A stretch of DNA of 64,000 bases from Diplonema papillatum (Eukaryota; Euglenozoa; Diplonemea; Diplonemida; Diplonemidae), in assembly GCA_030068145.1 (NCBI GenBank), contig JAPJBO010000121.1, positions 1 to 64,000 of the forward strand, read 5' to 3'. The position numbers were made by a program, and so were the translations under genes. The notes under the pieces were generated by a model. It had not been told where the DNA came from and searched no databases. It saw nothing but the letters and a program-made list of their open reading frames with translations. Below, piece by piece: positions 1 to 63,393 of this stretch (positions within the stretch are counted from its first letter, which is position 1; every line of letters begins with the position of its first letter).

Positions 1-2562
1 GGGAGTTTCCGGTCCCCTCACTTCTCTTCGTGCTGCCACGGCGGGCGTAAGTCGCTCCGGAGGCGCTCTGCAGGTTGCGGCTCTGCTTACAGTGAGTGGC
101 GACAAGAGGGAGACAATCGACACCAGGGTGGAGAGACGGAAGAAGTTCTGTCCGAGTCCGACGAGCTTACTGCCTTGCAGCTCTCATGTGCTGTAGTCCT
201 GCCACCTACCTCCGAGACGCGCGAAGAGGAGACGTGCTGCTGCAGAGGATACAATGCGAGGTGAAACTTGACGAACGTGTGTGATCATGGAGCGCAGCAG
301 AGCGCACGTGGTGCGCTGAGAGTACGCCGAAGCACGCCGCCCCTGGCGCACGTCCTCCGTTCGGTGGTAGGTATCTGTCGTCGCGTCCCCGCAGATACGG
401 AAGTACCACGGGGCAGCGTTTGCGTGCAAAAGATTCGAGCGCGGTGGCAGCACTCGGGACGAGGTGCTCCCTTCGCAAAGGCGGCATCCGGGTATGGGCC
501 GCCAGCAGTGCTCGCGCTAAGAAAAAAGCCGGTCATTTATGACTAAAAAAATCCATCGCTGAAAACTGATCGGTCATTTATGACCGGTCATTTTTGAGGC
601 AAAAAAGACCGGCTGACCAGTCATATTTGGGTCAAAAGTGACCAGCAGTGTTGTCGTGCCAGAGCAGCCGGGCAGGCCCTGCCTGCCTCCCACCTGGCTG
701 TGTTTTCTTCCTGGTGTCACAGTGGTGTACCCAATCACTGCACATGTGCCCTAATTACCGTCCGGAGCCGAAACCCAGCGACGACACTGAGCCGGCTAAC
801 ATGCTGCAGATCCAGCTGGCACAACGGCCAGTACTAACGTGTGATGAAGTGGACAACGACCAGCCGCACCTTTTTCCTGGGTCACTTTGATGCTTTGATT
901 CATAGAAAGGGCTGTGCCAGCTGGTGCTTGACCAATAAATCCAGTGAAAACCTGAACAAAAACTCAACATGGGGAGTGAACCGCCCTGACCAGGGGAAGG
1001 AAAACCGCCGAAAATACTGAAGCAGGCCACTTGGTTGGCATGGACCACGCCCAGTAGCCTCCACAAGTTGCGTGGACGGTGCGAGCCTTCAGCTCAGCCG
1101 AGCTCGATGAACTCAATGCCAACGTTCACGCACGACATACAGTTGGAGTGTCGACCTCGCACGAGGGCGCTGCACAGCGGCGGGTGAAATTGTCCAGAAA
1201 TGTCGCGATGTCCAGAAGGAAAGCCAGCAGCTATCATATAATGATAGCTAACGACTGGAGCAAATCTTTTTGTTCGGGGAAGGATCCTGCAGTCAGAAGC
1301 AACCCAGCCACCACAGATAGAGCACAAATGCCTCAGCGAGCCGAAGGATACCCGAATAGCTATCGACGGCATTTTGCACGAACCTTGGTCCAGTTAACCC
1401 AGATGGGTCATGCCTAGAACTCTTTCCTTACGCCATTCTGACGAAGCTGACTCAGCGACTGGGGAGGGGGCTCGCGACTCGGCCGTATCCAGGCTGCAGG
1501 TAAGCTCCATTGTGTACGTGGCTGCCTGCACTGAAACCCCTGGAAGACGAACACTAGTAAAAAAAGCCACACGCCTGAGATGCTTCGAAATAAAAAACTG
1601 CCCAGAGGCAGTTTTGAAAAATGACTGGGCCACCGGTCTTAAAGCGAGCACTGGCCGCCAGCGGAAAAAAATTTCAGAGTTTAACGTTCGCGTTTTTAGA
1701 GTTAAAGTTCGCTTGAAATTCCGGGGGTTTAGGGTCTCGTGACTGTTGACGAAAGAGTTCTCTTAGAGCAAGAAAGGGCTATAGGGTTACAGGTTGTATA
1801 TTTGGTGCACGCTTTCGTTATGGGTTATGGCTATGTCAGCTGGAGGTAGGCGTGGGCCCGTTATGAAAGCATCGTTGCTTGAAGTTTAAAGGCAAGTGCG
1901 GGTGCTTGGGACGGCGTGATATTGGGAGTAAGATAAACGTCGGGAGGAGGGATCGCATGCAGTGCTTGCAAAGCTTGTTGCCAGACTCGGCGAAAGCGGA
2001 GGTGGCGGGTGTTGTAGTTGTGTTAGTAAGATCAGCGAGCTGGATGTTTGTTGTTTCAAGAGAGAAAGTCAGATTGGTGCACGCCCAAACACTACCACAT
2101 TTAAGTGGCAAACACCAGTTCTACCGCTTTTAAGTGCAACCCCAGTTGCTACCCACTTTAAGAACAAAACAACAAGAAGACTAGCGGTATCCAACAGGCC
2201 CGAGTGCAACTGGGGGGGCGAGCTACTTGACCCTCAGTACCAAAAACGCAGGTCTTCTGCAGGAGTGGGCGGAGCGACTATCTCGTACATGTTCCAAGCG
2301 GCAATAGCCGAACAGGAACGCGAAGAAATGCAGAATGGGGAATGAAAGCTTGTCACTTCCCTGCAGACAAGAAGGTAATAGAAGAGAAGGACGAGGATCA
2401 AAAGAGAGAGAAAGAACGACAAAAAGAGAAAAGAAAGAAGAGTGAAAGAATGGAGATGAAGGAAGAAAAGATAGAAACAAAAGGAGAACAAAGTTTGTGA
2501 AAGAATGAACAGAAAAGAGCGACACAGTGTCCCTTTTTTAAACGAGATACTAACGGAAGGTG

Positions 2563-2640
2563 AACGGGGGGGGGGAAACATATTTTAATGGTTAGGCAGC
2601 GGGAACACTGCCTCTCATGCATGTTTGATGCTAGCATCAA
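2563..2640 (+). repeat. Dispersed G-run/TTTAATG motif, copy 1
   Basis: A run of G is followed by TTTTAATGGTTAGGCAG, a small hairpin (GGCAG...CTGCC), the palindromic CTCATGCATG and then GATGCTAGCATC. The same order of blocks recurs at 6623-6691 and 18226-18292, with shorter matches at 6080-6118, 9281-9306 and 18464-18512. Function is unknown. It could be the end of a short interspersed element or a shared promoter-like block. Confidence 0.5.
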
Positions 2641-2786
2641 CGACTCTTCATGAAAAGGAAACAGAGTACAAGAGTCCGTAACTTCGGAATGAACCCGTGG
2701 GGGGTCACTGTAATTTGGGTATGATTTAGGGAAATGAGAAGGGTAAAATAGTGTGGGATCTCCGACAGGGGGGGAAATATTAGTTA

Positions 2787-2945
2787 GTAGGGGGGGTTGC
2801 AAGAACGTGTTTGGAATGGATATGTACTCAACACCGCACTGGTCACGTCTGCGCCGTGTTCCGGTCCTGTAAGCCACGGACACTGCCAAGGCGGACCATC
2901 ATCAGCGCGGAACCTGAGTGTCTGCAGACAGGACCACGTGCTACT
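2787..2945 (+). repeat. Diverged dispersed repeat, copy 1 (partner at 17024-17155)
   Basis: This stretch and 17024-17155 share a colinear series of blocks: a G-rich start, GAGAACACG/AAGAACGTG, GGAAT, ATGTACTCAAC/ATGTGCTCAAC, TAAGCCACGGA, and GAGTGTCTGCAG. The divergence is substantial, so this is an old interspersed repeat. No coding frame is preserved between the copies. Confidence 0.45.
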
Positions 2946-3668
2946 AGAGTCCGGCACGGGGAGGAGGCCCCTACAACCTTAGTTCGTAGGGGGTGGGGGT
3001 GGGTGCTTCATTTAGCCGCGGTACGTTGCGTGCATCTGGTCGTCCTTCTGGGGGTTCGTTCTCACGATTCACGTACTGGTGAACACGGCAGCCTCGGTCG
3101 CTGGTGCCACGTTCATTAGCGTGTGCAAAGCGCACCCGCCCCTCGGCCGTGCACCTTGCACGGTGAGGTCCAGCCTCAGAAATGGATTTACACGCGTTTT
3201 GGTTGCAGCACACCCGCGTGTCGGGTGTGACTCGGGCACACCCTCTTTAACTCCAGCTTCTGAGGCTGGACCTCACCGTGTGAGAGACAGAAACCCCCAG
3301 GCATGTTTTTTGCTACTTACACCCAGTGCGCGCGCGATCAGCCGACTTGCCGGCTGGTTAAATTTCGAGTCCTTTTGTTACCAGCAGACTCGCACAAAAT
3401 CAGCCGATTTTCGACGGTGTAAGCTTTGCTATGCCGCCCATGGAGCGGAATCAGCTCGACGCACCGGCAAGATGCTGTCGTAAACCCCTTCTGATCGGCA
3501 GACCTTCCAAAAATCAGCCGGCTGATTCTCAGCCGGTCAGTTTTTCAAGAATATTTTTTTACGGCTGAAATCAGCCGCTTTTTTTCCACAGCGCGAACAC
3601 TGCTTACACCAGTGTTCTCGCAAAGGCCGATGGCCCCGCCTTTTTTTTTAAATGGCTCCTGGGCATAT

Positions 3669-4241
3669 CATGCTGGGTCAAAAGTTTGTGTCTTTTTTTG
3701 ACCTCACCTGCGGGGGAAAAAACACCCACATTTTGGCGCAGTACGTGATAAAACCATTTTTTTGGTGAAAAAAAGTGTGTTCATGGGATGCAATTTTTTT
3801 TCGGGTTTCTTGGCTGGGGCTCCAGCCAGAAAGGGAAACTAGAGTTTTCGTTGACCGCACTACCCTGAGCCCAAATCCTGGACGTGGTTTCAGGTGGCAA
3901 ATTTGGCAAATGATCATGATCAGAAGGTCCCACTTGGGCGTTTCAGTTTCCTCACACATTGCACGTGGCTAATTTTTTTTCCCCCCCAAATTTTTTTCTT
4001 GGGGGCCGTCGGCCCCGCGGCAGGATTGCCGACTGGCCCCTGGCAAAATGTGCTTCGTACTTTCTCCTACTCTCGCGGTGTACGGTTTTTGCTCAATTTC
4101 ATCAAAAAGCACCCCAGTATTTGTTCCAGAATTTTTGTTTAAAAAAAACTCGTTTTGTTTTCCGGAAAAAAATGGGTGGCCATTTTTTTTTGGGTCTAAC
4201 CCCCTGTTTACCAAAATGACACAAGGTTTTGACCCTGCATG
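3669..4241. mobile_element. Old copy of the CATG-ended MITE family
   Basis: The left end reads CATGCTGGGTCAAAAGTTTG and the right end is the inverse of CATGCAGGGTCAAAACCTTG. Both lie next to ATAT (3665-3668 and 4242-4245), which fits the 4-bp NTAN duplication seen at the younger copies near 50-64 kb. At about 573 bp it is longer than those (about 210 bp), and its left end has several substitutions, so it is an older or composite member. The G/C-rich core GCCGTCGGCCCCGCGG matches the core of the younger copies. No coding capacity is seen. Confidence 0.75.
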
Positions 4242-21231: not shown

Positions 21232-22299
21232 AAGGGGGGGTAGACCTATTATCCACCCGATTTTCTTCCGGAAATTCCGCGAACATTAAAACTAGTGGCG
21301 TTAAAATTTGCTATTATCCAGGCTTTATCCAATGCTTATCCTAGGGCTATCCAGGGTTTTGTTGCAGGGTGGTGTTTTTTTCCTTCGCGCTTCGGCGCGA
21401 TATCGATTATTGTTTGGTAAACCCAACCTGTCCGTTCGAGTGTTGGGGGGTGCCCTTTGACAATTCTGCTTGTCTAGGTTAGTAAGAGCCGACATCGAAG
21501 GATTGAAAAGCAACATTGCTATGAACGCTTGGCTGCCACAAGCCCCCTTCCCTGTGGCAAAATTTTCTGTCACCTCTGGCTTCATCCCTAACATAACTGA
21601 GGGATTTCGATATCACAAGGCACTCCCACGACCGCCTGGCCGACGTTCCCTGCACTGGATGCGGTAGAATTCAAGGAAGAAGTGCCACCGAACAACCCAC
21701 AGGTTGACATACCAGCCGTATCGGCACCAGTTGCACCTGCACCGGGTCCGACCAATTGCTGAGTGCACTGAGACAACACAAACTAGACCACACCAGCCGG
21801 CGCTTCAGCCGTCCTCTTCACAGCACCAGCAAAGCAAAGCGCACCCACAGGGCGGCAGAGTGTGCTGGTTCACAACACACTACACCAAACCGCGGCCTTT
21901 GAGAAACCATTGATCAGCCTCTTTTCCGTTTTAACAGCTCTTTTTTTTTGTTTTCACTCTCTCGTTTTGCTTGTTGGCACCATTTACATTCTATGCTGTT
22001 TCCACACTTCTTCTCACTTGGTATGCTGGTGTTACACTCACAGCAGGTGGGTAGGCCCACTTCCATAAAAAAATTAGTATGGCGCTTTCTTTTGTTTGTG
22101 CGCACTAGCGGAACTCACCTGCTTTGGTAAGTTTCATGTAGTACGCTGCCAACTACTAATTTTTAGTACCAACAATGCATTGTTAACACAGAAATTTACT
22201 CGCCGCTGAAAAATTAAACAGTTAAATTTTTCTCCAAAACCAGTCGACCTATTATCCTAGGATAATAGGTCCCCCTGGATAGTAGGTCTACCCCCCCTT
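21232..22299. mobile_element. TIR element of about 1.07 kb with AAGGGGGGGTAGACC ends
   Basis: The left end (21232-21254) and the inverse of the right end (22277-22299) agree at 22 of 23 positions. TA flanks both sides (21230-21231 and 22300-22301), consistent with a TA duplication. Inside are short minus-strand frames. One of these (21914-22105) has Cys pairs (TCCECN, IECKWC) and a Lys-rich tail, resembling a small zinc-binding fragment. No transposase is recognisable, so it is a non-autonomous or decayed element. A related right end (AATAGGTCCCC...CCACCCCC) appears near 27538-27557. It lies within or 3' of the phosphatase gene. Confidence 0.65.
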
Positions 22300-44466: not shown

Positions 44467-44610
44467 CTGTGAGTGTAAGTAAACACTGCACTCTCAAAAA
44501 TGATCGTCAGTCCACGCAGCCCACGGGGCACGCTGTAGCCACGCACCTTTTCAGGAGAACCCGTCTGAAGACTTTTCGCCCTAAAGAAAACTACCTTCGG
44601 TTTTACTTAC

Positions 44611-45414
44611 GAAGCATACCATGTGAGCATGCTGCTGCTTGATACGATCCTTGCGCATCATTTCCTGCTGGTGCCGTTTACTTCTGTAATACATGCTGTC
44701 TAGAAGCTTCGGGTACACTTCTGAGAATTGTTGGAACTCGGGAAAGGAGACGACGCCGTCTTCGTTGCGGTCAGCTTTCTTATGGAACAGGTCGTCGACG
44801 GTCGCATCGGTAAGCATATCGCCACCACCGGTAAGTCGTAGGCGTTGGAAGCACGTATTCCAGTCGTCAACACTGACGGCCCTCGTTTTGTTGGCGTCGA
44901 GCTCTTCGTATACAACGCGCACTTTGTCGGTGTACGTGGATTGATCCAAGCCAGGGCTGTGGGTTGTGTAACCACGGATCGGGCTGTTGCCAATGAACGG
45001 TGAGCCGAATGCGCTGGAAGAGTCGTAAAGTGGGGCGATGTACGATTCGTACGGCGGAGGCGTGCCTGATCGACGATAGTGCGGGCTCGAAGCAACAGGC
45101 TTCGTAGGGGGTGGAATCCGGCCCGGTGTCTCCTTATGCCACAGTGATTCCTTCTGAAAAATGTAGACCTGGCAGTAATCTTCGAGCTGACTTGAAGCCA
45201 CCAAATCAACCCACATTTCCATTCTCTCATCAAAAACCTGAGCTCTGTGGACTTGAAAAAGCCCAGCCTGCGGCGGGCGGCGCAGAGCAGCTTCGGCAGA
45301 CATCACTTCGTCAATTCTGTCACGTAGTTCGCTGATGGTAGGCACTGTGGGAAAGGACAGCTCATAGTTGCACTTTCCACCAAGATCGACAGCAGTAAGG
45401 ACGGTGAACACCAT
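44611..45414 (-). CDS. EF-hand/coiled-coil protein, exon 1 (N-terminal domain and two EF-hands)
   Basis: 268 codons from the ATG at 45414-45412 (MVFTVLTAVDLGGKCNYELS); an earlier in-frame GTG is not used as a start. Residues 1-100 look like a compact alpha/beta domain, residues 100-160 are Pro/Ser-rich, and then come two EF-hands. The first loop (DANKTRAVSVDD) is poorly canonical. The second (DRNEDGVVSFPE) has the expected Asp, Asn, Asp, Gly and final Glu for calcium. A basic helix (YYRSKRHQQEMMRKDRIKQQ) leads into the coiled coil. The GTAAGT donor at 44610 is phase 0. It probably links calcium to a filament or basal-body structure, by inference from architecture only. The frame and domain order support a real gene. 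Confidence 0.88.
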
Positions 45415-45454
45415 GACTACTCCCCTCCCTATTGTTTTCACAGTCCTAAGGTTT

Positions 45455-46778: not shown

Positions 46779-49700
46779 CTATTGGCGTTCCCCGTTGTAC
46801 GTGGGTGAGGAGGGCCTCTTCTTCTTGTTGCGTCCGGGGGTTGACGGGACGTTCGGTTCGTTGGACTGGTGGTGGCCGCGGCTGCAACATGCCGCCGGTC
46901 GCCTCTGCGTCAGCGTAGGGAGCCTCTTGCACTCTTGGCAGGTTCCTCTGCCATGCGTGCGGCAGGCATGATGCCCGCTGCGGCAACACGCCGCCGCCGT
47001 CTTGCACTCGCCGCACTTCGTCGTGCTGTGCTCTGTGCACACCGCGATCGGCTGCCCATCGTTCGCGTGGTGATGGTGCCGGCAGCACATCTCTACCGTG
47101 GGCACGTCCCTTCGGACGAGTGCTCTGCACGCCTCACACTTCCCTTTGTGATGGGTCGCGCACGTGACGAGTGCCTTCTCTATATCGACACCCGGCATAT
47201 GCACGGGGTCTGGGTGCAGTTGTGGTGGGGCAGGCAGGGCCCACCTCGCCGCTCTCCCGATCGTCCAGTCAGGGTACGCCGGGCACTGCGTCCCTACATC
47301 GCTTCCTTTCACTTGTTCCTCAAGTATCGTCCCCGTGTGTGCCTCGCGAAAGCGTGGCCTGGGCCGTACACCCGATATCCCCGAGATGCCCATGAACGAC
47401 AGCGACGTCGTCGGGCACACCCTCTCCCCTCTCATGCAGCTTCCCAGCCCTTGCTGTGCCGCCAGCTTGTCCAACGCGCTCATCATGCAGCGCAGGACGT
47501 TTCCCCGTTCTCTCACCCCCTTCGGCGCATTCCCGTGCAGCGGCATGCTGAGGCCCGAGAAGAGTTCAAAGTCGATCGCAAGCTCTAGCATTGACGCCTG
47601 CCCGCTCTCGGTCCACTGCATGTCAGACAGCCACGCTACCAACGCATAAAACGTCGGTAGTCCCCAGGTCTTGTTTCGCTCCCACGTCCATGCCGGGGCA
47701 ATCCGCGCAAAGGGGTGGTCAAATTTCTCGGCAGGCATCGCATCCGCTCTCGACCAGGGGGTCGTGGGGTTCCTGGCTACCCAGCCACGTGCTTCGAGCC
47801 CTGCCCGTTCCGCAAGGATTTCAGCCATCATCTCCTGGAGCCGCCTCGATAAGTGGGCGTTCCCCGGTACAACCACACCATGTTCCAGCGTGCATCGGGG
47901 CCACTCGGTTCGGTTGGCCGCCATCAGCCCGGCGTGTGCTTCCCGCCGGCGAATGTGTGAGTATGCGTCGCAGTCCCAGTAGATATGCTGTTCGTTCTCC
48001 GTCACGCCGCTCCCACAGTGCTTGCAGCTGGGCGCCTGCGGCTCAGCTCCGGCCTGCCTCATCCGCGACGTGAACTCCGCCGTGTTCACACCCCCCGCAA
48101 TCGCGACTCGAATTAGCTTCGCCGTGTGCGCGGAACATTCCCTCGTCTTCCAGAACGCATTCGTGCGCTCCAAGTCGGCTCTTTCCAGCCCCTGATATCC
48201 TGGCCTTCTCGCCATCAGTCGGGCCCACGTCCTCGTTCTCAGGTCCGCCCTCACTTCGTGCCCCCTCTTCGAGGGCGACGAGGCCAGCGGGTCGAACACT
48301 GCACCATTCCGTCGTAGCGTGCGAGATAGGGGCCCAGGTTCCCATATGTGTCCACACTCCTCCATGCTCCTCATCGCCAGCCCGACTGGGCCGAGGGGTT
48401 GGTCCCCCTCGGCGTACCGCCCCCGGATACTCTCCATCAGAGGTAGCAGTCGCGGTAGCCTCTCGCACGCCGCGTAGAACGCCGTCGTCACCCGGTACGC
48501 TAAACACGTACCGGGGTCCGTCAGGTGGCCCTTCTCCTGGAAGTTCAGGACCATTTCTCTCGCGCGCTTCGGGTTTGCTCCACCCCAGATCAGACCCATC
48601 ACCGACGTCGTCAACCGCTTCATCGCCACCTTCGACACCGGCGCGAAGGAGCAGCCTGATAGCGCTGCCGGCAACACATTCGACTGCACAATACGGACCC
48701 GCTTTTCGTACCGGAATGGCGCGTGGCGGAGGCCTTCCGCTAGGGCCGCCGCCCTCTCTACCCTCTTAGAGTCGGACCTCTCCTTTCTGTTCTTCGCCGT
48801 TGAGACTAGGGCCCCCAGACACGTGACGGACTTGCTAAATCGCAGCAGCGCATTTCCGCTTCGGAGTCTGAGCGTCGACTGGTGCCTCTGCCTCGTCGAG
48901 AATGCGATGGTCTTCTCGAGGTTTAGCTGCATTCCGGTGAGTGTGCAGAACTCGTCAACAATGTCGACTCCCTTTTGCAATGCGGCCTCTGACAGCCTGG
49001 ACAGTAGTGTGGCATCATCCGCGTACGACTTAGGACTCACACCCTCAGCTTCTTTCTTGACCGCTTTCATCACTACCGACAGCAGGGCATTGATGAGTAT
49101 GACGGACACAGGGCACCCTTGAAGGATACCGTTGGTCACACTAAACTCCCTGCCCACCCCTAGCGGCAACTTGAAGCGTCTCGCGAGCAGACTGTAAATC
49201 GCCCTCAGCGGCTTGAGAACCCGACCGTGCAGTCCTAAGTCCTCAGCCAAGCGTAGCACTACCTCTCGCGGGACCATGTCGAAACACTTCCGGAAGTCCA
49301 GCGCCACTCCGTAGAGCGGCTCTCCGTCCAGCAAGGCGTCCTCCACCTCGAGCCCTATCTCCATCAAGACGTCCTCGATCCGGTGGCCCGGCCGAAAGCC
49401 TTTCTGTCCTTCTTCGATCCACCCCTCCTGCCACAGGACAATGTCCGCAAGCCTGCGGCAGGCCCACAAGCGGTACACGGCGGATGTGACGGTTATCGGC
49501 CTCGTGTGCAGCGGGTCTTGGCTCTCATCTTTCGGCACCATCGACACCAGCGCAGTTGTCATGCTTGCCGGCCAGTCCCCAGTCGCTTCGACCAGGTTCA
49601 TGACGTCTGCAAGTGCATTCAGCAGGGGGAGCGGCAACTCCCGCAGTTCAGCCATACGCCAGCCACCCACCCCTGACGCGCTTTTCTTCGGCTTCTTCCT

Positions 49701-49967
49701 CAGCAGAATTCGCAGCTCCTCCCCCGTGATTGTTCCGGCTTCCATCAAGTGTGGGCCGATGTGATCCTGGAACCTATCCCGAAACGGCTCGTACTCCGGC
49801 TCTGGCCCGTCCTTGTCCTTACGCAGGATAGGGTCCCACGCAGTGTTCAGCGCCTCGTCCATCTCGTCAACATTTGCAATCACACCCGCCCCCGACGGCT
49901 CAGCGCGTCCGGCACAGATGGTTGTCAGACATCGTCTGCTCGCATCGGCCCTCTCGTTCAGCTTGTC
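46779..49967 (-). CDS. Non-LTR-type reverse transcriptase, 5'-truncated
   Basis: The frame is open from 49967 (just after an in-frame TGA) to 46779, about 1062 codons, with no ATG near its start. It reads as the truncated 3' part of a LINE-like element. RT motifs are clear: HTRPITVTSAVYRLWACRRL, GQKGFRPGHR, GVALDFRKCFDMVPREVV with the first catalytic Asp, GILQGCPVSVILINALLSVV, and SYADDATLLS with the YADD core. A thumb/connection region, a Cys-His motif (CKHCGSGVTENEQHIYWDC) and a long Cys/His-rich tail (CEACRALV, CCRHHHH, CGECKTAAACC, CQECKRL, CCSRGHH) follow. No endonuclease domain is present; it would lie in the missing 5' part. A MITE fragment (49975-50028) abuts the 5' end. No poly(A) tail was seen downstream. 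Confidence 0.9.
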   Translation of the reverse strand, partial: DKLNERADASRRCLTTICAGRAEPSGAGVIANVDEMDEALNTAWDPILRKDKDGPEPEYEPFRDRFQDHIGPHLMEAGTITGEELRILLRKKPKKSASGVGGWRMAELRELPLPLLNALADVMNLVEATGDWPASMTTALVSMVPKDESQDPLHTRPITVTSAVYRLWACRRLADIVLWQEGWIEEGQKGFRPGHRIEDVLMEIGLEVEDALLDGEPLYGVALDFRKCFDMVPREVVLRLAEDLGLHGRVLKPLRAIYSLLARRFKLPLGVGREFSVTNGILQGCPVSVILINALLSVVMKAVKKEAEGVSPKSYADDATLLSRLSEAALQKGVDIVDEFCTLTGMQLNLEKTIAFSTRQRHQSTLRLRSGNALLRFSKSVTCLGALVSTAKNRKERSDSKRVERAAALAEGLRHAPFRYEKRVRIVQSNVLPAALSGCSFAPVSKVAMKRLTTSVMGLIWGGANPKRAREMVLNFQEKGHLTDPGTCLAYRVTTAFYAACERLPRLLPLMESIRGRYAEGDQPLGPVGLAMRSMEECGHIWEPGPLSRTLRRNGAVFDPLASSPSKRGHEVRADLRTRTWARLMARRPGYQGLERADLERTNAFWKTRECSAHTAKLIRVAIAGGVNTAEFTSRMRQAGAEPQAPSCKHCGSGVTENEQHIYWDCDAYSHIRRREAHAGLMAANRTEWPRCTLEHGVVVPGNAHLSRRLQEMMAEILAERAGLEARGWVARNPTTPWSRADAMPAEKFDHPFARIAPAWTWERNKTWGLPTFYALVAWLSDMQWTESGQASMLELAIDFELFSGLSMPLHGNAPKGVRERGNVLRCMMSALDKLAAQQGLGSCMRGERVCPTTSLSFMGISGISGVRPRPRFREAHTGTILEEQVKGSDVGTQCPAYPDWTIGRAARWALPAPPQLHPDPVHMPGVDIEKALVTCATHHKGKCEACRALVRRDVPTVEMCCRHHHHANDGQPIAVCTEHSTTKCGECKTAAACCRSGHHACRTHGRGTCQECKRLPTLTQRRPAACCSRGHHQSNEPNVPSTPGRNKKKRPSSPTYNGERQ

Positions 49968-56245: not shown

Positions 56246-56368
56246 GAATCGTCTTCCCTGCGCTTTCAGCCACGTAGAAATAAGAAGAAGGCAAATGAGA
56301 AACAAGCTCAGGATCTTAGACAAACGTTGTGGAAGAAACAAGAAAGCCTTGTGGAGAACAAGGTCACA
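56246..56368 (-). repeat. Split direct repeat B2
   Basis: 123 bp, same sequence as 56497-56619. It starts GAATCGTCTTCCCTGCGC on the plus strand and forms the 3' terminus of the retroelement. Confidence 0.92.
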
Positions 56369-56386
56369 GGGGGATGGGTGGGCGGG

Positions 56387-56496
56387 CTTCAAACTTTCGG
56401 TTTTCACCCCTTCACCGCCCTCCTGGATCACGGTTCGTTGAAAAGCGACACCGGAGTGGCAATCTTCGGGTCGTTGATTCCCCAGATGAATCTGCA
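56387..56496 (-). repeat. Split direct repeat A2
   Basis: 110 bp, same sequence as 60509-60618. It lies between B1 and B2, with an 18-bp G-rich spacer (56369-56386) next to B2. Confidence 0.92.
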
Positions 56497-56619
56497 GAAT
56501 CGTCTTCCCTGCGCTTTCAGCCACGTAGAAATAAGAAGAAGGCAAATGAGAAACAAGCTCAGGATCTTAGACAAACGTTGTGGAAGAAACAAGAAAGCCT
56601 TGTGGAGAACAAGGTCACA
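56497..56619 (-). repeat. Split direct repeat B1
   Basis: 123 bp, directly abutting A2. The retroelement's RT frame ends at 56631, 12 bases away. Confidence 0.92.
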
Positions 56620-56630
56620 TGCCGCCTCCA

Positions 56631-59501
56631 CTACGCCAGTCCCGAGAAAAACCTCCTCACCGCCAGTGATACCTCCTTCTCGTTGTCCTCTGACATTTTT
56701 GCTGGATGAACCCGTGAAGGCAGATCCGCCGGATTGGATGCTGATTTCACCCACTGAAGGGAGAACACACACCTTCGATCCTTTAACAGTTGCAACGCAC
56801 CAACGACCGAATCGTTTAATAACTTGCTTTTGGCGCAATGTTTCTTTCTCGTTGCGCCCACTACTGTCGTGTTGTCGACAAAAATACTGATCGAACAACC
56901 AGCAGCCTGACATGGTAGTACCTGCAAAACACAAAACAAGGCACGTGCTTCCAACTCATTAATATGGCGTGTTTTGAAATAGGGCGACCATTCTTCACCG
57001 TGAATAAAAACTTCGATTGTGTCATTGTTCACGATGACACCTCCCCATCCTTTCAAGCTAGCATCCACAAAAACAGTGAACGCTGATTTGGCTTTGGTGT
57101 GGACTTTTCTTTCCTGCTGTGCTTCCCGCCGCCATCTTGTTAACTCGCCTGAGACGGAGGGTGGAATGTGGACCAAAGAGTTTGGTTGCCTTGTGCCGCG
57201 GTTCAAGTGATTCACCACTCTCCGTAAAAACTTCAAGGCAAACCAGTAAGTCCCCGGAAACACCCCAGAGACAGCAGAAGCATGCAACAACCTGCCGCCT
57301 AGCGACTCCAGCTCGGCGGCTGTTAGTTTTTCAGACACATCGACTGCCTCGAGTCTATCTCTCGTTTTAGCAGAAGGCCGAACGACTCCTTGTTGATGAT
57401 CCCAGTCTACACCTAAAAATGTGTACTGCTTTGCATCTGTCTGTGAGTCTTCATGCTTCCATGAAATCGCACACTGCTCGGCTGTTCTGTCTAAGCGGGC
57501 TGACTCCCTTTTCACTGCATTGGTTCGGCCAGTGTATCGGATGTTGTCAATCCATACGTGTACAGTCACACCCTTGGCCGCATATGCTGGTCGCACATAA
57601 ACTGGATCACCCGCTGCCACAGCAGCTAGTGTGTGCATCAATTCGGGAGCACAACAGTGTCCCATCGGCAAGCGGTTCATCGCCCACCAATTGCCATCCG
57701 CATCGGAAAAGCGGAATAGCCACCGGCACTGAACAGGTATTTCAATTGCGTAAAACCCAGTTCTAAAGTCCCGTGTTGTGCCGCTGTCGCTGTTTACGGC
57801 AGGCAGGTAAGCTGATATGTGCTCAATCGGCACTTGTGCCTCATATCCTTGATTTCCGAGGAGTTCATTTGCCTCCCTCGTCCACAGGATGAATCTCTGA
57901 CGCAGACCGCTCTCTTTCTCTTCAAGAACAGTGAAAGGGATATTCTGATACGGTCCTGGCCCTTCGGCTTTTGAAACGATGCCGCGTTCAAAGAGTGTTA
58001 CAGCGTGTGATCTTGTGAACATCGATGGCCGATCGTAAAAGCTCTGTGTGGCATTCTTGAAGTCCTGAGAGAAAAAGGTCAAGCGCCATACTTTTTCGAA
58101 TCTACGAAGGGCTGACGGTGACATTCTGCTCTTCAGCTCTTCGACATCCATGGGCGGAATGCCTGAAACATGCAGAGGCGATGCCCTCTCAGTCTCTGAC
58201 TCCGGCAACCTTGTCCTCTTGCTTCTCCTGGTGATAGAGAACCTGCTATGTTGTTGGAACAGAGGTTGCGAAAAAGAAGTCAGAAACCCATCTAAAGGAG
58301 AGAGGTAACCGTCGCGGTGGCCAGCAATCTTGCCATTGCCACAGGGTCGCCCCCGTAGCGCAGCGTCGTGTCGGCGATTTGCTCCGGCGCCTTGTGCTTC
58401 GCGAGCCTCGATATCAGCACCACTGGGAACTGCTCGCCCTCGTCGGCCTTGCGAAAAAGGTGGGTCACCGCACCCCTCTTGATGCTGTGGGCTGTGTACC
58501 CCACCATGTTGGGACTTTTCCGCCACTCTGCTATGAGCATCGCTGTCGTCCAAGTTGTGAGTTTCTGGAACGGCAACAACGACTTCAGCAACACGTAGAT
58601 TGCCTGTGTCCAGTCGCCCTTGATGACCGTCCACCTGGAGGGTGTGAACGGCATTGCTCGGCGTCCCTTTGGAAGAGTAAACCAGTCGATCACAATCTCG
58701 GTGGGGCTGACGAGAAGGAAGTTCGCTGTGGACAACTTTGTCACTTCCTCCCACCGTGAAGCTGACTTCCACGCTATCAAGGCCGCGAGACACAGCCGAG
58801 GTTGCTGGCTGAATGCCCACGCACCCAGAAGATGCTTTTCCATCGGCAATGCCTGCCGTATCGGAACTGCGGCCCCGACAGCCCGCAGTGCGGCTGCCAT
58901 GCTCAGCAGAGGCTGGTTGGGCACTCCCATGTGGCGAAACATGCCGGAGAAGCTCTTCGCATAGGCCAGCATTCCCTGTCTCCGTATACCGGTAGCCGCC
59001 ACAAAAAGGCATGCTGAATCCGGATTGGTCGGAAGGTTGTTGGAAGTGGTCCAAGCTTGAAAGCGCCTCCACAGGTGCCGGCGCTGGGCTGTTGTTGAAT
59101 GTGCCCACATCTGTGCCACGAGCTCTTGCAGTCGTGCTGTCGCTACCTCGGTTGTAGTCTTGTTCTCGCCAGTTCTGCGACCCGTCGTAGGGCTCATGCC
59201 TCCAGCAAGATGCTGAAGGACCATACGTCCGAGAAGGGTAGTAGGTTGAGCCTCGACTGGGGCCCCGTTGCCATATGTAGGGCCGAGTTGATTGGTGTCG
59301 AGAGTGCAGTGGCACGAGCGTGCATTCACAGGCGCGCTTGGAAGCCCGCTTTGTAATACGTTGTAGGGCGTTGAGGCCGTCATGGAACTTACGGACTTTC
59401 TTTTCACTTTGCCGTTGCTGACGTGGAAGAATTGCATAGTTTTGTTGTTGTTGTTGTTGAATACTGGCGTTGTTGGTTGCAGCCGGAGCGGACCCAGTCA
59501 T
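56631..59501 (-). CDS. Reverse transcriptase/RNase H of the tyrosine-recombinase retroelement
   Basis: The ATG at 59501-59499 overlaps the gag stop as ATGA, which is why I choose it over the TTG at 59540; this gives 956 codons. Residues to about 410 are low-complexity and overlap the recombinase gene in another frame. RT follows: TRDFRTGFYAIEIPV with the first catalytic Asp, NRLPMGHCCAPELMH, and VHVWIDNIRYTG, where the usual YxDD core is WIDN. Then come QYTFLGVDWD and RNase H (FTVFVDASLKGWGG, HINELEARAL, SIFVDNTTVVGA, LQWVKSASNPADLPSR). No methyltransferase domain is seen. The Asp-to-Asn change may lower activity or be a lineage trait. The frame is otherwise unbroken, so the copy is young. 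Confidence 0.88.
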   Translation of the reverse strand: MTGSAPAATNNASIQQQQQQNYAILPRQQRQSEKKVRKFHDGLNALQRITKRASKRACECTLVPLHSRHQSTRPYIWQRGPSRGSTYYPSRTYGPSASCWRHEPYDGSQNWREQDYNRGSDSTTARARGTDVGTFNNSPAPAPVEALSSLDHFQQPSDQSGFSMPFCGGYRYTETGNAGLCEELLRHVSPHGSAQPASAEHGSRTAGCRGRSSDTAGIADGKASSGCVGIQPATSAVSRGLDSVEVSFTVGGSDKVVHSELPSRQPHRDCDRLVYSSKGTPSNAVHTLQVDGHQGRLDTGNLRVAEVVVAVPETHNLDDSDAHSRVAEKSQHGGVHSPQHQEGCGDPPFSQGRRGRAVPSGADIEAREAQGAGANRRHDAALRGRPCGNGKIAGHRDGYLSPLDGFLTSFSQPLFQQHSRFSITRRSKRTRLPESETERASPLHVSGIPPMDVEELKSRMSPSALRRFEKVWRLTFFSQDFKNATQSFYDRPSMFTRSHAVTLFERGIVSKAEGPGPYQNIPFTVLEEKESGLRQRFILWTREANELLGNQGYEAQVPIEHISAYLPAVNSDSGTTRDFRTGFYAIEIPVQCRWLFRFSDADGNWWAMNRLPMGHCCAPELMHTLAAVAAGDPVYVRPAYAAKGVTVHVWIDNIRYTGRTNAVKRESARLDRTAEQCAISWKHEDSQTDAKQYTFLGVDWDHQQGVVRPSAKTRDRLEAVDVSEKLTAAELESLGGRLLHASAVSGVFPGTYWFALKFLRRVVNHLNRGTRQPNSLVHIPPSVSGELTRWRREAQQERKVHTKAKSAFTVFVDASLKGWGGVIVNNDTIEVFIHGEEWSPYFKTRHINELEARALFCVLQVLPCQAAGCSISIFVDNTTVVGATRKKHCAKSKLLNDSVVGALQLLKDRRCVFSLQWVKSASNPADLPSRVHPAKMSEDNEKEVSLAVRRFFSGLA
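58292..59437 (-). CDS. Tyrosine recombinase of the retroelement, nested in another frame
   Basis: 381 codons from the ATG at 59437 (MQFFHVSNGK), lying wholly inside the RT frame but in a different phase. The C-terminal half has the tyrosine-recombinase residues: SASRWEEVTKL (Arg about 228), AHSIKRGAVTHLF (His about 317, Arg about 321), and HKAPEQIADTTLRYGG (nucleophile Tyr about 361). It would insert a circular DNA intermediate without target duplication, in line with the empty site. An extensive overlap of recombinase and RT frames is known from DIRS-1. Here it occurs with split direct repeats instead of inverted ends. Confidence 0.87.
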   Translation of the reverse strand: MQFFHVSNGKVKRKSVSSMTASTPYNVLQSGLPSAPVNARSCHCTLDTNQLGPTYGNGAPVEAQPTTLLGRMVLQHLAGGMSPTTGRRTGENKTTTEVATARLQELVAQMWAHSTTAQRRHLWRRFQAWTTSNNLPTNPDSACLFVAATGIRRQGMLAYAKSFSGMFRHMGVPNQPLLSMAAALRAVGAAVPIRQALPMEKHLLGAWAFSQQPRLCLAALIAWKSASRWEEVTKLSTANFLLVSPTEIVIDWFTLPKGRRAMPFTPSRWTVIKGDWTQAIYVLLKSLLPFQKLTTWTTAMLIAEWRKSPNMVGYTAHSIKRGAVTHLFRKADEGEQFPVVLISRLAKHKAPEQIADTTLRYGGDPVAMARLLATATVTSLL

Positions 59502-60508
59502 TTCGCCCCGGCCGTGGCTTTTCCCTGACTCTTCTTCCAAGCTGGAGTTGAACGCTGCACTTTCTTGTTCATGCGCTGCATGACAACCGCCGCAGCTTTG
59601 TCGACGGTGTTCGTAGGACCTGAAGGGCCCTCACCCTGCTTCGCCAATTCGACCTTCAACTCGCGTCTGGGGACCTTGTACCGCACATAGTTGTATTGCA
59701 TGCGGACCAACCTCAACAGATTGTTGCCGGCTTCTCGTTGTGGAGTCCCCTGCCATCCATCGAAGTACGCAACCCCCATCACCCACAATCGTAGACTGTG
59801 AAATGCCTCCTCCAACTGCTCTCCACCTGGCAGATGGGCCATGCCACTCAGGTACCTTGACTCCAGATGGTAGATGAGCCGATGCGGGTCCGCCCCAATG
59901 TCATCAGCCCATTGCACGACATCATCAGCATCCGCCGGAAACACCACCTTCGAGTTGTCCTCTTCTGCTGGCGCCTTGTTGCCTGCCACCATTCCACTGC
60001 CCTGTGGAGTCAGTTCTTCAAGCTTGTTCAACAAAGCTGTCACTTGCAGCTGCAAGGCCTTGAGTTGCTCATCCTTCAAAGCCGCTTCGCTTTTCAATCC
60101 AGCAATGACATTGACTGCCTGCTCTGTTTGATGCACTGTGGCATCCAGAATGCGGCTGTATGTGTACCCGTCCGCAGGGAGTGGATAGACTTGCTCTGGG
60201 CCCGTGTGCTGAACCACCCCATGCAGTTCGTTATTTGCTACTGATGCCCGCACTTCATACCGTTCACCACTAGTTGCCAGATGCCCTGCATGCAGCTTGT
60301 ACGGCTCATTGGAACCCACAGGTCTTAGCGAGTACACGACCACCTTTCCGACCAAAACACGACACTGGTCGTGCAATTGCCGTTCTGACATGTGCTGTGG
60401 AGCTGGAATTCCCGCCTGGCCAGCACTGGCTGATGGTGCAACAGAGCGAGCTCTTTCAGTTTCCGATTCTGACGAAGAGCGAGGTGGTTCAGGAGAAGCT
60501 GCTAACAT
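59498..60508 (-). CDS. Gag-like protein of the retroelement
   Basis: 336 codons from the ATG at 60508-60506 (MLAASPEPPR), which follows the A1 repeat by one base; the frame is also open through A1 but has only a GTG there. Visible: IPAPQHMSERQLHDQ, LVGKVVVYSL, YPLPADGYTYSRI, a coiled coil (residues about 135-170), ESRYLSGMAHLPGGEQLEEA and a basic C-terminus (NKKVQRSTPAWKKSQGK). There is no CCHC knuckle. It is clearly homologous to the frame at 62085-63317. It presumably packages RNA. The stop overlaps the RT start. Confidence 0.85.
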   Translation of the reverse strand: MLAASPEPPRSSSESETERARSVAPSASAGQAGIPAPQHMSERQLHDQCRVLVGKVVVYSLRPVGSNEPYKLHAGHLATSGERYEVRASVANNELHGVVQHTGPEQVYPLPADGYTYSRILDATVHQTEQAVNVIAGLKSEAALKDEQLKALQLQVTALLNKLEELTPQGSGMVAGNKAPAEEDNSKVVFPADADDVVQWADDIGADPHRLIYHLESRYLSGMAHLPGGEQLEEAFHSLRLWVMGVAYFDGWQGTPQREAGNNLLRLVRMQYNYVRYKVPRRELKVELAKQGEGPSGPTNTVDKAAAVVMQRMNKKVQRSTPAWKKSQGKATAGAK

Positions 60509-60618
60509 CTTCAAACTTTCGGTTTTCACCCCTTCACCGCCCTCCTGGATCACGGTTCGTTGAAAAGCGACACCGGAGTGGCAATCTTCGGGTCGTTGAT
60601 TCCCCAGATGAATCTGCA
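60509..60618 (-). repeat. Split direct repeat A1
   Basis: 110 bp, same sequence as A2. It forms the 5' terminus of the retroelement and probably holds its promoter, an inference from position. Confidence 0.92.
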
Positions 60619-61946: not shown

Positions 61947-62084
61947 ATACCCTTTCCACTCAGAATGTGAAGGCTCCAATTTCATCGCAGTTCACTGGGG
62001 GAATCCAGACAAGTCAAGTCACTTGAACAACACAGCCGAACAGGTTGGGTTTAGGGGGGCGGCACAGAGCAATCACTTTTCCTG

Positions 62085-63317
62085 ATGGACGCAAATGTTG
62101 AACCCCGTAGCAGATCACAAAGCGTTTTTGTTCGGAATGAGGCGAGGGAAAACACACCGGCGGCCACTGGTGGTGAGGGTGGTGTACCAGCGCCACAGTA
62201 CATGAGTGCCGAGAATCTGAAAGATCAGGCAACCCGGCTTATCGGACGTGTAATCGTGTATACCGCAGGAGAAGAAGGACACCCTGCTCGTCAGTACGGC
62301 GGCCTCCTCAATCGCGGCCCGAACAACACCCTCAACGTTCTGCGCAGCCGTGCCTATAACTACCTTGAAGGGTGTGTTGAACACAATGGAGAAGACGAAT
62401 TTGTGCCGATGCCAGCAGAAGGATGGTATTACACCCGAATTGTGGCAGATGCCATCCACCAAACAGAGAAGGCACGGGCTAGTATCGAAGCCCTAGAGAC
62501 ACAGCTGGCCCAAGCACGTTACCGAGAGCAAGCATATGTTGCTACCCAAATGTCACACGGCGACCGTGACGCATCGGCAGGGGTCTCCCAAATGCCTCAA
62601 CAGCACCCTCTACCTCCTGCACTTCCGGAGCCTGACAACCTGGCGTTAACTCACCCGGCAGATGCTCATGATGTGCGTGCGTGGGAGAGCGCCATTGCCA
62701 ACAGCCACGAGTTGTTAATTACTCAACTGGAATCTCGCTTGTTAGCTGGGTTGGTACACCTTCCGGGGGGTCAGATCTTACAAGAAGATTTTGACACCGT
62801 GAGAGGATGGATTGTATGTGCTTCGTGGTTGCAAAATTGGGCGTCAACTCCGATGACAGCATTGGGTAACATGCAGGGTCAAAACCTTGTGTCTTTTTGG
62901 AAATGGCCAAAAAAAAATTTCCGGAAAAAAAATGGGTTTTTTGAATTTTAAAAGTTTGGAACAAACTCTGCAGTATTTTTTGAGGAAGTTGAGCAAATTT
63001 TTTTTTTTCCAAAATTTTTTTTTGGGCTCCATCGGCCCCGCGGGAGCGTTTTAAAAAGACACAAGGTTTTGACCCTGCATGGTAACAAGGTCTTCCAACG
63101 CTTGCTAATACAGTATCAGTACGTTGTTCACAAGAAGCCTCGCCACCAAATTGAAGAAAAGCTTACTCTTCACAATCCCCACGTTCACCCGGTCCTGAAA
63201 GCTGCGGCTGCTGTCAAACAGCAACCATCATCGCGTGGGAAAGGACGTGGGCGCGGTTTCTCGATGCAACCACCACAGCGAAGACAGGGAAACGCCAATG
63301 CTGGGAAGGGTCATTGA
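62085..63317 (+). pseudogene. Gag-like gene of a second tyrosine-recombinase retroelement, split by a MITE
   Basis: It starts at the ATG at 62085 (MDANVEPRSRSQSVFVRNEA). Homology with the gag at 59498-60508 is visible in VPAPQYMSAENLKDQ, LIGRVIVYT, EDEFVPMPAEGWYYTRI, IHQTEKA and LESRLLAGLVHLPGG. The MITE at 62870-63081 interrupts it. Leaving out the MITE and one GTAA restores one frame of 338 codons plus stop, close to the 336 of the other gag, and ends in a Gly/Arg/Gln-rich basic tail (GKGRGRGFSMQPPQRRQGN). No ATGA-linked downstream frame follows; a satellite begins 80 bases later, so the rest of this element is missing or displaced. Confidence 0.8.
62870..63081. mobile_element. CATG-ended MITE inside the second gag gene
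   Basis: A 212-bp copy flanked by GTAA (62866-62869, 63082-63085). The empty site, read from the two flanks, is ATTGGGTAACAAGG, and it keeps the gag frame. Confidence 0.94.
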
Positions 63318-63393
63318 CTGGGACCTTCTCAGCTTCTCGCCGTCCAGTCGGTAGACAACTACCCCCCAAAACCCGTGTACGTTATGGGCAGCT

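Follow-up and report, generated by a model that had tools for sequence, protein, structure and literature searches.

Among the described tyrosine-recombinase (YR) retroelements, those closest to the one considered here are VIPER, known from Trypanosoma and other kinetoplastids, and TATE, also of kinetoplastids. The published coordinates of T. cruzi VIPER place ORF1 at 169-1509, YR at 1510-2517 and RT/RH at 1386-4214 (PMC5146736); by arithmetic, therefore, its YR follows the gag stop in the gag frame and its RT/RH lies in the -1 frame. The same gene order (gag, YR, RT/RH), with a -1 RT/RH frame that spans YR (PMC5146736), and the same split direct repeats in the arrangement A1...B1-A2-B2 (PMC6681497) recur in the element reported here, and both lack a methyltransferase. 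The two differ in that the account of the VIPER coding regions mentions the overlap and alternative RT starts and reports no recoding signal (PMC5146736), and in that the host here is probably not a trypanosomatid. TATE, compared by description only, likewise has a YR that overlaps RT/RH as well as split repeats (PMC12278014), and two copies from Bodo saltans carry gag, YR and RT/RH in one ORF (PMC6681497); it is set apart by being described as telomere-associated and by a longer YR ORF in L. braziliensis (PMC6681497).

Structure of the element and its relatives

In the window, that is, the whole stretch of 64,000 nucleotides analysed here, the first-pass annotation had recognized an intact-looking YR retroelement with split direct repeats and a 381-codon recombinase frame lying wholly inside the RT frame, and all three observations hold. 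The element occupies 56246-60618 on the minus strand (4,373 bp, with its 5' end at 60618) and its repeats follow the order A1...B1-A2-B2. Its main features, from 5' to 3', are:

60509-60618, minus strand: A1, the 5' split direct repeat, identical to A2 over 110 nt
59501-60508, minus strand: gag-like ORF, 336 aa from the first ATG (60508) to the stop, with gag relatives in the same genome
58292-59497, minus strand: YR frame, in the gag frame, 401 codons from the gag stop; 11 aligned sequences all share R, K, H, KR, H and Y
59437-58292, minus strand: YR frame from its ATG, an ORF of 381 codons inside the RT frame
56631-59501, minus strand: pol frame, -1 to gag, 956 aa, of which about the first 402 codons overlap YR, followed by putative RT and RNase H; open across YR in 11/11 families and matched weakly by Pfam RNase H and by PDB profiles
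56497-56619, minus strand: B1, identical to B2 over 123 nt
56387-56496, minus strand: A2, identical to A1 over 110 nt
56246-56368, minus strand: B2, the 3' end of the element, identical to B1 over 123 nt

To the ATG-initiated recombinase frame we add that the YR reading frame, which is that of gag, is already open immediately after the gag stop. A longer match between A1 and A2 (114 nt, 99%) extends 4 nt beyond the element end and has its single mismatch in those 4 nt. When the flanks are joined without a duplication they yield a 24-mer of which the neighbouring repeats contain two intact copies, which agrees with an insertion that left no target duplication.

The window holds further features of note. 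At 62055-63360 on the plus strand lies part of a second, broken YR element with an interrupted gag-like ORF (62055-62948); its junction (63287-63321, plus strand) has GGGAAAC, TTGACTGG and an S1 stem that differs in sequence. A GC-rich open frame of 1062 aa at 46782-49967 (minus strand) matches RVT_1 (E 4.3e-19) and represents another retroelement. The gene at 44584-45453 (minus strand) has EF-hands and a match to BILBO1_N (E 1.2e-5; 25.9 bits, below the cut-off of 28.3), BILBO1 being a flagellar pocket protein of kinetoplastids, so that the match points towards a euglenozoan host. Finally, an isolated LSU rRNA fragment at 21411-21544 (minus strand) may be set beside the roughly 3,600 scattered 28S pieces described for Diplonema papillatum (PMC10161547).

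Searching the genome (271 Mb in 2,910 contigs) with YR gave 108 scored matches among 1,902 first-look candidates, and with RT at least 87 matches, 83 of the 2,975 candidates having been scored. From these loci we defined 11 families with one representative each: F1, the window copy (L031); F2, L039; F3, L043; F4, L046; F5, L048; F6, L049; F7, L052; F8, L060; F9, L061; F10, L063; and F11, L064, with F7-F11 covered to the ends of their sequence pieces. Their YR proteins are 42-73% identical, and four-fold sites between families are near saturation (identity 21-46% for YR and 15-42% for the pol and gag controls). The representatives were chosen for a long YR frame and a junction and are thus no random sample; moreover, as they are mutually related, a count of 11/11 does not amount to 11 independent trials. 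The repeat order seen in the window recurs in F4 (locus L047), F5 and F6.

The recombinase and polymerase proteins

The identity of the recombinase is probable from five residues, R, K, H, H and Y, that never vary in an alignment of 11 sequences (from 10 families and L059, a lake metagenome contig taken up below), box II having Lys for the usual Arg. Box II reads HSxKRG in 11/11 aligned sequences (the window, 58292-59437 on the minus strand, and its relatives), with the Lys at the place of the HxxR Arg. Profile searches returned no Pfam family for the window YR protein, two chance-level Pfam families among seven YR members (each in 1/7), two PDB chains at E of about 0.4 for YR, and nothing at E up to 5 for a YR profile of 11 sequences.

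On the pol side, Pfam RT_RNaseH is matched by five of seven members (best E 1.4e-4) and a PDB chain, 8r0s ('Enzymatic polyprotein'), at E 0.005 in a profile search; RNase H is the sole Pfam listing for the window pol at E up to 1. By its motifs, together with these weak profile matches, pol is identified as a putative RT/RH. Pol ends about 30 residues past the DLPSR motif of RNase H, and a methyltransferase domain is absent. The RT motif C is WIDN, not YxDD, in 7/7 aligned sequences (the window, 56634-58199 on the minus strand, F2-F6 and L059). Structures predicted from two-row alignments had a mean pLDDT of 38.2 for YR and 39.7 for RT.

Selection for an open frame across the recombinase gene

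The pol frame is open across YR in all 11 families (in F7 to the end of the piece, 402 codons). The first-pass annotation had argued from a chance estimate that the overlap is maintained; that estimate was of the right kind, and the comparison of further copies it proposed, which found no stop in the overlapped RT frame of any of the 11 families, makes the case far stronger. As a null model we fixed the YR protein and its codon usage and shuffled codons within amino acids (1,500 shuffles per family). Not one of the 16,500 shuffles over the 11 families was free of stops in the RT frame; family by family they averaged 6.5-12.5 such stops, with a minimum of 1. For the window copy, zero RT-frame stops are seen against 10.5-10.7 expected (minimum 3 in 3000 shuffles, 2 in 1500), and the third frame has 15 stops against 15.6-15.7 expected; over the families, the third frame has 14-25 stops, with 13-23 expected.

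The same avoidance can be read at single positions. A stop arises in the RT frame only where T is the last base of a YR codon and the next codon begins with AA, AG or GA. T is found at none of 750 eligible codon ends in the 11 families, as against 643 of 3,637 elsewhere. Using stop-free shuffles as the null for seven families (21 pairs), we found the RT-frame amino acids across YR to be near the null in 14 of the 15 pairs that involve F5, F6 or F7, the exception being F4-F6 (z 2.9). The six pairs among F1-F4 show an excess of RT-frame amino-acid conservation (z 1.7-5.3), which reflects shared ancestry or a weak constraint.

Since openness is kept and the amino acids are near the null, the RT frame appears to need to be passable, its sequence mattering little. 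An open RT frame within YR thus fits entry of ribosomes to pol upstream of YR, not a start of RT after YR. Hence, judged by these comparisons, the overlap is kept by selection for an open frame, and the nested YR and pol genes would offer a natural instance in which selection keeps a frame open while acting little on the amino acids it encodes.

The junction at the end of gag

In all 11 families, gag and YR share one frame, split by a single TGA, and pol is in the -1 frame. The features around this TGA in the window copy are:

59519-59525, minus strand: predicted -1 slippery heptamer G_GGA_AAA in the gag frame; a heptamer lies at -25 or -28 in 11/11 families
59504-59512, minus strand: 5' arm (GCCGGGGCG) of predicted stem S1
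59501-59498, minus strand: ATGA, joining the end of gag and the start of the RT frame, as read in the sequence
59498-59500, minus strand: gag stop TGA, the predicted readthrough codon, with CTGG after it; TGACTGG in 11/11 families
59494-59498, minus strand: 5' arm (ACTGG) of a possible pseudoknot stem S2, a predicted stem
59482-59490, minus strand: 3' arm (CGCTCCGGC) of predicted stem S1
59463-59467, minus strand: 3' arm (CCAGT) of S2; CCAGT in 10/11 families, TCAGT in F5

The heptamer, G_GGA_AAM of the form X_XXY_YYZ, starts 25 or 28 nt upstream of the gag stop (GGGAAAC in eight families, GGGAAAA in three). A scan of the 120 nt before the stop met three further heptamers of this form, a single one in each of F2, F3 and F11. 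In F11 the open part of the pol frame ahead of the stop begins no earlier than -34, and the heptamer at -25 falls within it. TGA CTG G stands at the gag stop in every family.

The predicted stem S1 closes over the stop, with a mean z of -3.1 against shuffled arms and a nominal p <0.05 in 10/11 families (0.077 in F5). Of the 88 cells that make up its eight core pairs, 83 hold standard pairs, as against 29-52 with the 3' arm slid by 1-3 nt, a count favoured because we picked the arms from predicted stems and chose the register in F6; with the second junction of the window included the figure is 91/96. Both sides change in some families at five of the eight positions (3, 5, 6, 7 and 8). The ACTGG around the stop can pair with the downstream CCAGT to form an H-type pseudoknot, S2 by itself being nominally significant in only 5/11 families. 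The folding energy of the full junction region is unremarkable in several families (z +0.3 to -3.0), and the single Rfam match at the junction is at chance level (E 7.7). The predicted spacer from the heptamer to the first pair is 3-6 nt, 3 being the minimum that our script allowed; 6-9 nt is typical of -1 sites (PMC3835772). The junction would accordingly combine the hallmarks of a -1 frameshift signal: an in-frame X_XXY_YYZ heptamer, a spacer at or below the typical length and a predicted structured stimulator.

The pattern GGGAAAM-N15..24-TGACTRG occurs 743 times in the genome (377 and 366 by strand) against 46 times for the reversed control; these matches are copies, not independent events, and since the pattern fixes CTR after the stop, other stop contexts go uncounted. 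By spacing (control in brackets) there are 65 at N15 (7), 19 at N16-17 (7), 455 at N18 (0), 8 at N19-20 (10), 179 at N21 (6), 12 at N22-23 (11) and, by subtraction, 5 at N24 (5); spacings that preserve the frame thus account for about 704 matches (18) and those that break it for 39 (28). Among the matches listed there are junction types beyond the 11 families, many with GTGA or TTGA, and the junction families of the genome include TGACTAG and GTGACTGG types. The TGACTAG variant has 61 matches (control 21), of which 40 rows belong to two repeated junction types and four are copies of the window family.

In the loci themselves, 54 motif matches fall in 53 loci; 49 of the 54 open into a YR frame of at least 370 codons from the stop, and in 49/49 of these the pol frame runs past the end of YR, though some loci overlap and copies are counted twice in both figures. 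The five others are in L010 (343 codons), L015 and L026 (194 codons each, hence a frame break in YR), the second copy of L044, whose junction carries an insertion of 4 nt, and L054. The last has its junction at the end of the piece and a YR lying head to head with an inverted gag end that carries its own junction, which is a rearrangement or a nested insertion. The motif is absent from 11 of 64 loci: L004 and L034 (one place), L009 and L038 (one place), L012, L013, L014, L056, L057, L058 and L059. Unrelated sequence precedes YR in L004, L009, L012 and L014; L056 is truncated ahead of about residue 67 in a YR of F6 type; L057 and L058 reach a contig edge; and L059 has a junction type of its own without the genome motif. 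Further out, gag or pol is broken in many copies.

A proposal for the translation of the nested genes

The layout, the frames, the selection for an open frame, the conserved in-frame heptamer, the stem and the stop context are all observed in the sequence; frameshifting and readthrough, their rates and transposition are inferred. We propose, with a probability of about 0.6, that this VIPER-like YR retroelement makes three products from one mRNA by means of two recoding events at the end of gag. Most ribosomes would translate Gag and stop at the UGA. A fraction would slip back one base at G_GGA_AAM to yield Gag-RT/RNase H, the ribosome being held by a pseudoknot with S1 over the stop and the loop ACUGG pairing with the downstream CCAGU. 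Another fraction would read through UGA-CUG-G to produce Gag-YR in the gag frame. RT would then copy the RNA through the split repeats, and YR would insert the circle without target duplication, as is suggested by the YR retroelement family at large. As the slipped ribosomes would cross the whole of YR in the -1 frame, that frame would have to be stop-free and its amino acids would matter little.

The comparison of families argues well for production of Gag-RT/RH by -1 frameshifting, which we consider very probable. Given the frameshift, UGA readthrough is a likelier source of Gag-YR than reinitiation, and we hold it to be probable. We prefer readthrough because the UGA is followed by C, YR is in frame without a shared ATG, and CTA follows the stop in two junction types; YR is in effect a conserved in-frame extension past the gag stop. 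The published high-readthrough motif is UGA CUA G (PMC12233894), from which the UGA CUG G found here differs, and the CUG that most copies carry is also a possible start. More tentatively, and at somewhat worse than even odds, a single RNA pseudoknot with the gag stop in its loop may serve as a three-way branch (terminate, slip or read through) that sets three doses; such a branch may be ancestral to VIPER-like elements across Euglenozoa and may force a pol stretch of 400 codons to stay open with almost no demand on its sequence.

The question of how YR is translated had been rightly raised in the first-pass annotation, and it is here that the strongest alternative lies. In this account the -1 frameshift makes Gag-RT, and YR is a separate product of termination-reinitiation at the post-stop CUG or a nearby AUG; TGA CTG G would supply such a start, the CUG that immediately follows the stop, and YR could arise in this manner. 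The CTG G after the stop in 11/11 families, an ATG one codon past the stop in L059 and the annotation of VIPER YR from the base after the gag stop (PMC5146736) all speak for it. The stretch from the gag stop to the first YR-frame ATG is open in 11/11 families, yet by itself this has a joint P of about 0.006. Against reinitiation, 40 of the 61 TGACTAG rows, known from their junctions alone, have CTA after the stop, which is no usual start codon, and four more such rows are copies of the window family; further, the first YR-frame ATG is 8-56 codons on and unaligned among the families compared. Once the frameshift is granted, we regard reinitiation as rather unlikely, and the joint account of frameshift plus separate YR as slightly less probable again.

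Two further alternatives fare far worse than reinitiation. As the host is in Euglenozoa, a group with spliced-leader trans-splicing (PMC10161547), YR and RT might each have a trans-spliced mRNA of their own, in the manner of euglenozoan genes. An RT mRNA beginning after YR, however, would need no open RT frame inside YR, and that frame is strictly kept, leaving trans-splicing very unlikely.

A shade less likely still is the proposal of the first-pass annotation that RT starts by stop-restart at the ATGA. The fusion of the gag stop and the RT start as ATGA at 59501-59498 is real, recurs in 8/11 families, and stop-restart coupling is known in other elements. Its A, however, is not conserved, the first triplet being ATG in eight families, TTG in two (F5 and F6) and GTG in one (F8). 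In these three the first RT-frame ATG lies 58, 130 and 90 codons downstream, respectively, the frame before it staying open; none of the 48 eligible codon ends there has a T (joint P about 1e-5, to which F6 contributes most). Stop-restart also leaves the in-frame heptamer and its spacing unexplained, and on account of the TTGA and GTGA families we reject it as the general mechanism. Lastly, an accidental overlap, through composition or the recent common origin of mutually related families, can be all but dismissed given near-saturated four-fold sites, 14-25 stops in the third frame and the failure of every shuffle to yield a stop-free RT frame.

Comparison with known systems

A search for relatives in genome contigs beyond the host returned 279 stretches with the pattern, of which one was confirmed; among viral contigs, 20 such stretches were found and none was confirmed. 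The confirmed case, L059, is a metagenome contig from Lake Erken assigned to a delta-proteobacterium bin, in which gag, a TGA and YR lie in one frame and pol, at -1, is open across YR. It shows 40% identity in YR (42% in the best segment) and 37% in RT. The only heptamers in frame at its gag end are G runs, at -28 and -16, where the sequence is rich in G, and a hairpin is predicted to surround the stop; the layout is hence shared and the recoding signal uncertain. Given that L059 contains a VIPER-like element, its bin is probably contaminated with a eukaryote.

The first-pass annotation had likened the overlap to DIRS-1 and the repeats to Ngaro, PAT and VIPER. The match to VIPER stands and the mixture of DIRS-1 with Ngaro does not. 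DIRS-1-like elements share a long YR/pol overlap, described for half of 28 elements (PMC3266345), and differ in having inverted terminal repeats and a methyltransferase, and in that the overlap excludes the catalytic part of YR in the elements so described (PMC3266345) and includes it here. Membership in DIRS-1 was rejected on account of the direct repeats at the ends and the lack of a methyltransferase, inverted repeats being present only in the flanks. Ngaro and PAT have split direct repeats too, as described. Ngaro, however, is described with the order gag, pol, YR and usually without ORF overlap; the position of YR upstream of RT/RH, where Ngaro needs it downstream, excludes the element from that group. 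PAT differs in being described with a methyltransferase.

We file the element as VIPER-like because the VIPER coordinates imply an equal frame layout; the gene order with its overlap, the split repeats and the lack of a methyltransferase point the same way, the placement being one by layout, not phylogeny. A described group with this layout, which the first-pass annotation had named as part of what would refute its reading, is found in VIPER in the same sense.

As for the junction, its closest counterparts are found outside YR retroelements. GGGAAAC with a downstream pseudoknot is described for several retroviruses (PMC3835772), and GGGAAAC is the slip site of PEG10 (PMC2800197). The retroviral and PEG10 sites differ in that the accounts of them describe no second enzyme gene that continues the gag frame past its stop. 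For frameshifting or readthrough in YR retroelements, no report was found by a full-text literature search that did not extend to Lorenzi et al. 2006 and the papers of Poulter and Goodwin, or by a term search of the review PMC5009743 in the portion covered. Thus, the overlap of YR with RT/RH and the gene order are already known for VIPER and TATE from the descriptions at hand (PMC12278014, PMC6681497, PMC5146736), and the recoding signal is the part for which we found no report. Such a signal would be a directly testable answer to how nested YR and RT genes are translated, and would bring -1 frameshifting, and possibly readthrough, together at a single site of a retroelement equipped with a recombinase instead of an integrase.
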